DNA of 52,190 bases, taken from assembly GCA_026928325.1 (NCBI GenBank), contig JAIXKS010000047.1, positions 1-52,190 on the forward strand. Direction: 5' to 3'. The DNA comes from Chitinophagales bacterium. Lineage in GTDB: Bacteria > Bacteroidota > Bacteroidia > Chitinophagales > Saprospiraceae. A program made the translations under genes and the position numbers. Of the stretch, positions 50,914 to 52,190 are shown one piece after another; the first letter of the stretch is position 1, and each line of letters starts with the position of its first letter. The notes below the pieces were generated by a model that saw only the letters and a program-made list of their open reading frames with translations, did not search any database and was not told the DNA's origin.

Positions 50914-50978
50914 GAGACAAATGAAGGAATCGGTGGTTTGAGCATCGCCATTTAATGATATTTGCTATCACGATTCTA

Positions 50979-51137
50979 GTGCTCTGTCCACAAAAAAATC
51001 TTAAAGAAATGTCGTTCTTTTTTCAAATCTCATCGTTAAAAATACTCGTCATAGTTACCACTATGCCTGCGTTTTTCGCCTTGATCTTTAAAAAAATATC
51101 TTCCATTATTATTTAAGTCTTTTTATAGACAGAGCAC
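50979..51137 (-). mobile_element. MITE-like element, copy F (long form)
   Basis: A 159-base copy, flanked by CTAG at both ends like copy E, with a perfect central hairpin at 51050-51065. It fills most of the 372-base gap between the ChaN-like gene and the convergent zinc-ribbon lipoprotein gene; the remainder shows nothing recognised. Confidence 0.88.
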
Positions 51138-51285
51138 TAGGTTTTAAACTCGAGGAGCTTAGAACTTAGATGTGAATGGCATTAATGCTTCGTAATCCAA
51201 CTGCTGGATTCAAAAATCATTTTCGTATTCCCTGATTGATTGCTAATTTGAGGCTTGTAACGAATCCTCCGTGCATCATCGTGAC

Positions 51286-51983: not shown

Positions 51984-52190
51984 ATTGTGAATTGCTTTTG
52001 TTATTTGAAATACTGATATTTGCGACAATTTACGTTTTTTTGGAAAATCGTCACGATTAGTTGTGAATTGCTTTTGTTATTTGAAATACTGATATTTGCG
52101 ACAACAGAAAACGAATTTGGAGCGATCGGGAGCATGTTGTGAATTGCTTTTGTTATTTGAAATACTGATATTTGCGACAACTTGCCCTCG
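51984..52190 (+). CRISPR. CRISPR array, probable type II-C, running off the window end
   Basis: Three 46-base repeats (51984-52029, 52060-52105, 52136-52181) are separated by two unrelated 30-base spacers, a period of 76; a third spacer starts at 52182. Repeats 2 and 3 are identical and begin GTTGTGAATTGC and end TTTGCGACAAC, with complementary GTTGT/ACAAC ends. Repeat 1 differs only at its first base (A for G) and last base (T for C). Length, ends and spacer size match Bacteroidota Cas9 (II-C) arrays. GATATTTG in each repeat (positions 32-39) is near the TAnnTTTG promoter box. No cas gene is in the window. Confidence 0.93.

Follow-up and report, generated by a model that had tools for sequence, protein, structure and literature searches.

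A CRISPR array of probable type II-C at the end of the window, with cas genes on the same contig and a recurrent RAYT-like gene between cas9 and cas1

Three copies of a 46-base repeat stand at the very end of the window (the whole stretch of DNA analysed, 52,190 bases; C13:1-52190 of a 171,935-base contig), which raises the question of whether they belong to a CRISPR system and, if so, of which type and with which genes. The reading to which we give a probability of roughly 0.94 is that they are the oldest part of a type II-C array, at its cas-distal end, with cas genes and a tracrRNA alongside and cargo genes between cas9 and cas1 (Table 1). The array itself is ordinary; together with its Cas9 it adds to a kind that is already well described, and the main use would be as another CbCas9-like nuclease. 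What was not expected is the gene lying between cas9 and cas1, which resembles a transposase and occupies a slot that is filled alike in relatives beyond chance.

The array and the cas genes beyond the window

The three 46-base repeats and two 30-base spacers first described from the letters of the window were recovered by computation at the same coordinates (51984-52190), and the repeat ends, GTTGT and ACAAC, are complementary as had been noted. The array has a period of 76, made of a 46-nt repeat and a 30-nt spacer. Repeat 1 differs from the identical repeats 2 and 3 only at base 1 (G to A) and the last base (C to T), indicating that the terminal pair changes together; the degenerate terminal copy is at the cas-distal end. 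A 44-nt repeat core with up to three mismatches was found at three places in the window and in none of 100 dinucleotide shuffles, and the exact core has three places in the whole genome, all inside the window. The window stops at 52190 because a run of 2450 N begins there (C13:52191-54640), an assembly gap or withheld sequence, leaving three repeats and two full spacers readable. Since the exact core is absent elsewhere in the genome, the rest of the array, if any, most likely lies inside this N stretch, along with the leader end. No match to the repeats or the tracrRNA was found in Rfam at E up to 1.

The readable copies number only three, as they could in a chance or satellite tandem repeat that is no CRISPR array, but unrelated 30-nt spacers separate the near-identical 46-nt repeats, cas genes are present on the contig and a matching anti-repeat lies 10 kb away, which makes this alternative extremely improbable.

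The original prediction had expected a Cas9 and a tracrRNA just beyond the window end or elsewhere in the genome, and both are on the same contig, up to ~10 kb away. Past 52190, full-length open frames for cas9, cas1 and cas2 were found at 2.6-10 kb from the window end, the cas9 with RuvC_III and HNH_4 domains. The neighbouring cas genes are of type II, and an orphan array is ruled out by their presence on the same contig. The type II-C reading was borne out by cas9, cas1 and cas2 scores above the curated cut-offs, that of cas1 with the type II family, by the anti-repeat, and by the absence of csn2 (II-A) and cas4 (II-B) among the six operon proteins scanned, the 2450-N stretch being unreadable. 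The best PADLOC models were Cas1_II for cas1 and Cas2_II for cas2. The order array-cas2-cas1-cas9-tracrRNA is the usual II-C order, with the 2450 N separating the array from cas2. The II-C label is thus a probable assignment from gene content and the nearest solved relative, not from a tree against II-A, II-B and II-D Cas9.

Table 1. Features of the array (window positions) and of the adjoining cas operon (contig C13).
Feature	Coordinates	Strand	Remarks
CRISPR repeat 1	51984..52029	+	terminal copy, both end bases altered (G1A, C46T)
Spacer 1	52030..52059	+	30 nt; no convincing match in phage, plasmid or viral collections
CRISPR repeat 2	52060..52105	+	46 nt; nt 1-21 pair with anti-repeat C13:62239-62259
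Spacer 2	52106..52135	+	30 nt; no convincing match in phage, plasmid or viral collections
CRISPR repeat 3	52136..52181	+	same sequence as repeat 2
Spacer 3, initial 9 nt	52182..52190	+	N run on contig thereafter
cas2	C13:54782-55165	-	TIGR01573, 72.7 bits (cut-off 24.5)
cas1	C13:55114-56013	-	type II family TIGR03639, 272.1 bits (cut-off 120)
RAYT-like gene	C13:56167-56856	-	HUH transposase-like; between cas1 and DUF6155 gene
DUF6155 gene	C13:56869-57390	-	between RAYT-like gene and ORF170
ORF170 (170-aa gene)	C13:57394-57906 (= L008:7394-7906)	-	family without a name
cas9	C13:57911-62197	-	1428 aa; TIGR01865, 414.6 bits (cut-off 100)
tracrRNA locus	from C13:62239	+	anti-repeat 62239-62259, upstream of cas9
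AmiA-like gene	C13:62455-63321	-	past tracrRNA locus

The same genome holds a second CRISPR system with repeat arrays (L071, C17:116000-135500), in which RAMP-like, type I/III cas1, PrimPol-like and cas2-like genes were recognized, most of them named by eye. Its cas1 is of another type and adjoins the PrimPol-like gene and cas2 (by eye). A small toxin-antitoxin-like pair with a PIN-like protein also lies inside this locus.

Guide RNAs, Cas9 and the integrity of the locus

Repeat and anti-repeat form an uninterrupted duplex of 21 bp (20 Watson-Crick pairs and a terminal G-U; cofold energy -30.3 kcal/mol). This pairing fixes the sense strand of the array as plus, towards cas2, and whether the N stretch is a gap or not, the 21-bp match ties the array to the cas genes. 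The anti-repeat is followed on the plus strand by a hairpin and then by a terminator-like hairpin with a T run. Directly upstream of the anti-repeat, TATCTTTG fits TAnnTTTG, a Bacteroidota promoter element according to PMC10309648. A TTG is found inside the repeat 35 bases ahead of each spacer, and a near -7 element in the repeat (GATATTTG) has one mismatch to TAnnTTTG. Flavobacterium II-C arrays are described as having a repeat-borne promoter with TTG at that position (PMC10309648), and by analogy transcription here would likely start inside the repeats as well.

Both spacers were searched for in phages and plasmids by blastn with a word size of 11 and, as exact 23-mers, in viral contigs, and no convincing protospacer was found in these collections. 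The best phage match, shared by six Aeromonas phage records, covered 27 bases at 88.9% (E 0.6), and the best plasmid match 22 bases at 95.5% (E 0.4); no exact 23-mer occurred in the viral contigs.

The Cas9 contains the Pfam domains Cas9-BH (bridge helix), HNH_4 and RuvC_III. Its residues D9 and H862 fall in the alignment at the two positions where the deposited dead CbCas9 carries alanine, and the key HNH and RuvC residues are, as read from the alignment, present.

A functional system could operate in the following way. Pre-crRNAs would be transcribed on the plus strand toward cas2, probably from a promoter in each repeat, the 5' half of each repeat would pair over 21 bp with the predicted tracrRNA, and the duplex would be trimmed by host RNase III. 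Cas9, with its key HNH and RuvC residues present, is predicted to cut matching DNA, and Cas1-Cas2 would insert new spacers at the cas2 side. The RAYT-like, DUF6155 and 170-aa genes are most likely co-oriented cargo, tolerated where cas9 modules exchange, and not required parts.

A MITE-like repeat, about 165 bases long and bounded by inverted ends of 21 nt, is present ahead of the array (window 50976-51140), right after the N stretch (L008 4641-4760, in the coordinates of the present locus) and beyond cas9 (L008 13455-13776), so that the CRISPR-cas locus is bracketed by its copies. Two pieces of MITE-like copies are separated by a further N stretch, which is short.

It is improbable that the array is a relic, that is, the remains of a MITE-flanked locus which cargo has interrupted and which no longer makes or uses crRNAs. 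Decay of this kind could account for the degenerate terminal repeat, the three foreign genes (RAYT-like, DUF6155 and ORF170) between cas9 and cas1, the MITE-like copies on both sides and the search without a convincing protospacer; yet cas9, cas1 and cas2 are full-length and the key Cas9 residues are kept, repeats 2 and 3 have the same sequence, the anti-repeat retains 21 pairs with the repeat, and the cargo lies on the cas strand, like all cargo ORFs of the 77-locus survey below.

Cargo and the RAYT-like gene at the cas9/cas1 junction

Seventeen named Cas9 relatives were compared, 16 of them with cas1. The nearest were L017 and L020, with 81-82% Cas9 identity; their cas1 is only 46-48% identical. 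Judged from these identities, this is the pattern of an in-place cas9 replacement, as documented for Flavobacteriales (PMC12669027) and within a conserved II-C locus of F. psychrophilum (PMC10309648). Both relatives also have cargo between cas9 and cas1, consisting of a PRiA4_ORF3 gene and a RAYT-like gene in L017 (Bacteroidota MAG SZAS-80), and of two RhuM-like frames, one under the Pfam cut-off, in L020 (Crocinitomicaceae MAG). Among the 16 relatives with cas1, three had cargo and one a RAYT-like gene; nine of their cargo ORFs were on the cas strand and five on the opposite strand, all five in L019, a locus of mixed cargo strand with an 8.4-kb insertion. The array of L020 (82% Cas9 identity; L020:16423-18614) has repeats read as 57 nt, with a period of mostly 87 and 25 copies by script, and in most L020 relatives examined the repeats are shorter (46-47 nt).

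A wider survey covered 395 genomes of the window's class, probably Bacteroidia, the present genome included. Its 136 cas1 rows were split by bit score into 83 type II-like and 53 type I/III loci, partial hits in G471, G467, G156, G203 and G493 being left out. Sequence was examined for 80 type II-like and 20 type I/III loci, plus L071-L073 and the present locus; 22 of the 53 type I/III loci (L071 and L072 included) were thereby examined in sequence and the other 31 by coordinates alone. The operon survey took in 82 type II-like loci, with G152 outside it, and five were dropped for having no type II cas1 over 200 bits, which left 77 loci, 67 with cas9 and 10 without it on the examined stretch. 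This set overlaps with the named relatives, as cas1 is identical in L087 and L020 and in L159 and L025.

ORFs of at least 75 aa between cas9 and cas1 or between cas1 and cas2 were found in 29 of the 77 loci, and all 45 of these cargo ORFs were on the cas strand. Pfam searches of ten cargo proteins gave matches for nine, to ATPase_2, nucleotidyltransferase-like, HIRAN (two), Fic, DUF4143, RhuM, DUF559 and GIY-YIG families, and nothing for one.

The ORF170 family was found at 20 sites in two genome samples (8 and 13 rows, with the present genome in both). Six sites are at CRISPR loci of types II-C, I-B, III-A and III-B, some of them labelled by eye: II-C in the present genome and G154, cas4-cas1-cas2 loci (type I-B by eye) in G050 and G148, a locus with RAMP genes (type III-B by eye) in G100, and one with Csm4 and another RAMP gene (type III-A by eye) in G419:C7. 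The other 14 sites are unrelated places as read by eye, some on short contigs. Members of the family often have a Cys-rich C-terminus, which the present copy lacks, and tblastn of ORF170 against phages gave no match. The family ranks as a second candidate alongside the RAYT-like gene. At the G154 locus (L073, G154:C36), of type II-C, cas1 is flanked by two RAYT-like genes, and an ORF170 relative is present too.

The DUF6155 family was found in 20 of 148 relative genomes. In the 19 genomes other than the present one it was not beside cas9 (E up to 1e-30), and a blast search of its neighbourhoods in the same 19 genomes found no adjoining cas9, cas1 or cas2. A role of the DUF6155 gene as a Cas9 partner was ruled out, given the lack of cas neighbours in other genomes.

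The RAYT-like protein matched NF047646 with E 6e-15 and 55.4 bits (curated cut-off 80) and Pfam Y1_Tnp with 18.9 (cut-off 23). Its HUH motif is NHFH and its tyrosine motif YIHLNP; H53 and H55 are invariant and Y164 nearly invariant in 16 aligned RAYT-like copies. The gene contains a palindrome with perfect 15-nt arms within its coding sequence (L008:6557-6589), and this palindrome is very similar across RAYT-like genes with only about 44-60% protein identity. Within the coding sequence, 17 of 19 CRISPR-locus copies and 7 of 20 non-CRISPR copies contain an inverted repeat whose arms are 15-19 nt long and differ at no more than one base, at a required score of 12 or more, and codon shuffles of those CRISPR-locus copies reached at most 10. 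The 19-nt palindrome core (at most one mismatch) was found nowhere in the present genome outside the RAYT-like gene.

The RAYT-like gene might take an active part in II-C adaptation or in cas9 exchange, its HUH single-strand nuclease being kept next to cas1 for handling DNA ends or carrying a cas9 module between loci. We regard this as unlikely, and hold as equally tentative the idea of a lineage of RAYT-like HUH single-strand nucleases that is resident in Bacteroidota II-C operons, returns to the same slot between the effector and adaptation modules, moves from locus to locus independently of cas9 and of cas1-cas2, and would aid spacer uptake or cas9 swapping. What speaks for a partnership is, first of all, the distribution of the gene. 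A profile derived from 16 copies, every one of them at a CRISPR locus (one type I-like, one upstream of cas9), gave 105 rows in the 395 genomes, corresponding to at least 100 RAYT-like sites in at least 73 genomes; at most seven candidates per genome were scored, so copies may be missed. A RAYT-like gene was present within 2 kb of cas1 in 18 of 83 type II-like loci and in none of 53 type I/III loci, and 19 of the 100 sites were within 2 kb of a type II-like cas1, against about 0.02 expected with an assumed mean genome of 3.9 Mb and 4 kb per locus. One further site (G393) is upstream of cas9. Within 7 kb the counts were 19/83 and 0/53 (Fisher P 5e-5), and no RAYT-like gene was found within 20 kb of the 53 type I/III cas1 genes. 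A weak match of 30 bits at L102 was left out of the RAYT counts. Even a profile made from 20 non-CRISPR copies only was positive at 18 of 77 type II loci; the two sets of 18 are not identical but each has one locus that the other lacks, L115 being counted by coordinates only and L116, a 28-bit fragment, by profile only. The gene is mostly between cas9 and cas1, and between cas1 and cas2 in L129, L131 and the second copy of L073. For this one sample the statistics of its recurrence at the cas9/cas1 junction are firm. Text searches of titles and abstracts, not exhaustive, showed no paper describing a RAYT-like gene at cas9/cas1 among the matches listed (one match, PMC7606416, concerns E. coli transcription factors by its listing), and the word CRISPR occurs 0 times in the available text of PMC6006769, on RAYT/TnpA-REP genes.

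From the history of the gene, the group of seven, the comparison of L127 with L151 and the dN/dS of the closest CRISPR pair, given below, also speak for a partnership. In a tree of 39 RAYT copies, the present gene (L008) falls in a group of seven (with L017, L144, L096, L095, L127 and L151), every member of which is between cas9 and cas1; support at the base is 90/77, and there are starred branches within. The CRISPR label requires 8 changes on this tree, whose bootstrap had not converged, 2 of them forced by starred branches; 1 of 500 label shuffles was as low (mean 13.3). On the cas1 tree the same seven loci require 5 changes (shuffled mean 6.9; 5 of 500 as low), and for the other RAYT-bearing loci the number is 12, the maximum possible. 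Pairwise identity within the seven is 58-80% for RAYT, 33-87% for cas9 and 43-77% for cas1. The DNA of L127 and L151 is 0.78 identical in RAYT, compared with 0.48 in cas9, 0.57 in cas1 and 0.61 in cas2, and that of L096 and L127 is 0.83 identical in cas9, 0.69 in RAYT, 0.54 in cas1 and 0.61 in cas2. Such discordant divergence points to separate movement of cas9 and of RAYT, each leaving its neighbours behind, unequal rates being another possibility. The closest CRISPR pair of RAYT genes has a dN/dS of 0.14 (dS about 1.1).

Against a partnership, the RAYT-like gene is missing from 59 of the 77 surveyed II-C loci, and 67 of the 100 RAYT-like sites are in genomes without a type II-like cas1. Two non-CRISPR pairs have dN/dS values of 0.11 and 0.06, so the CRISPR copies do not stand out in being under purifying selection. 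Seven of the 20 non-CRISPR copies occupy another operon, between deoC-like and aldehyde-dehydrogenase-like genes (names by eye; L191, L195, L197, L198, L200, L201 and L202, seven genomes). Operon copies are broken or partial in L091, L132 and L134, L116 holds a fragment and L093 a partial second copy; the L115 copy is cut at a contig end. The same slot is used by other gene families. In G050 (L065), outside the counted set, a RAYT-like gene has cas4 as its neighbour in a type I-like locus, so type II is not the only type with which the gene is associated.

On balance, cargo is more likely than a functional link to CRISPR, and we read the RAYT-like gene as recurrent cargo at a known cas9-swapping junction. 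If it is mere cargo, the junction still collects small genes of many families, mostly in the cas orientation, which warns against naming CRISPR partners from neighbourhood alone. A transposase-related gene that recurs at the cas9/cas1 boundary is a definite thing to test.

Comparison with known systems

The closest solved Cas9 is CbCas9 (PDB 8iyq, 8wmh, 8wmm, 8wmn and 8wr4), with a phmmer score of 2028 bits. Residues 1-1426 of the 1428 in the present protein were aligned with it, and the alignment ends at CbCas9 residue 1427 of 1442; a C-terminal helix (CTH) is a feature of PcrIIC1-associated II-C Cas9 proteins. The original prediction had called the Cas9 uncharacterised, which is right for this protein, but a solved member exists in its family. 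The CbCas9 system is reported as type II-C, with a partner protein, PcrIIC1 (PMC13153721). Pfam gave no PIN-domain family at E up to 0.001 for any of the three cargo proteins, indicating that PcrIIC1 is not among the readable genes of the operon; unlike the CbCas9 system, the readable operon here has no gene for this PIN-domain protein. ORF170 and the DUF6155 protein were each considered as PcrIIC1 and ruled out, having no PIN family and no convincing PDB relative; the cyclin-K matches in the PDB search of the cargo proteins had E 0.11 or worse and were discounted.

Compared with known RAYT/TnpA-REP genes, the present gene combines traits of two subclasses. NHFH with YIHLNP is the pair printed for subclass 2.1, and a palindrome within the gene is a trait of subclass 2.4 (PMC6006769). 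REP insertions within tnpA-REP genes are described there for a subclass whose members occur in Bacteroidetes, Cyanobacteria and further phyla. Another RAYT feature, the dispersal of REP palindromes through the genome, was not seen here for the palindrome core of the gene itself.

The II-C locus of Flavobacterium psychrophilum Fp2Cas9, as described in PMC10309648, shares with the present locus the 46-bp repeats, an array downstream of cas2 and the position of the repeat-borne TTG promoter. In the Fp2Cas9 locus, IS982 and IS256 transposases are found between the tracrRNA and cas9 and in the array, whereas the present locus has a RAYT-like gene and two small genes, located between cas9 and cas1.
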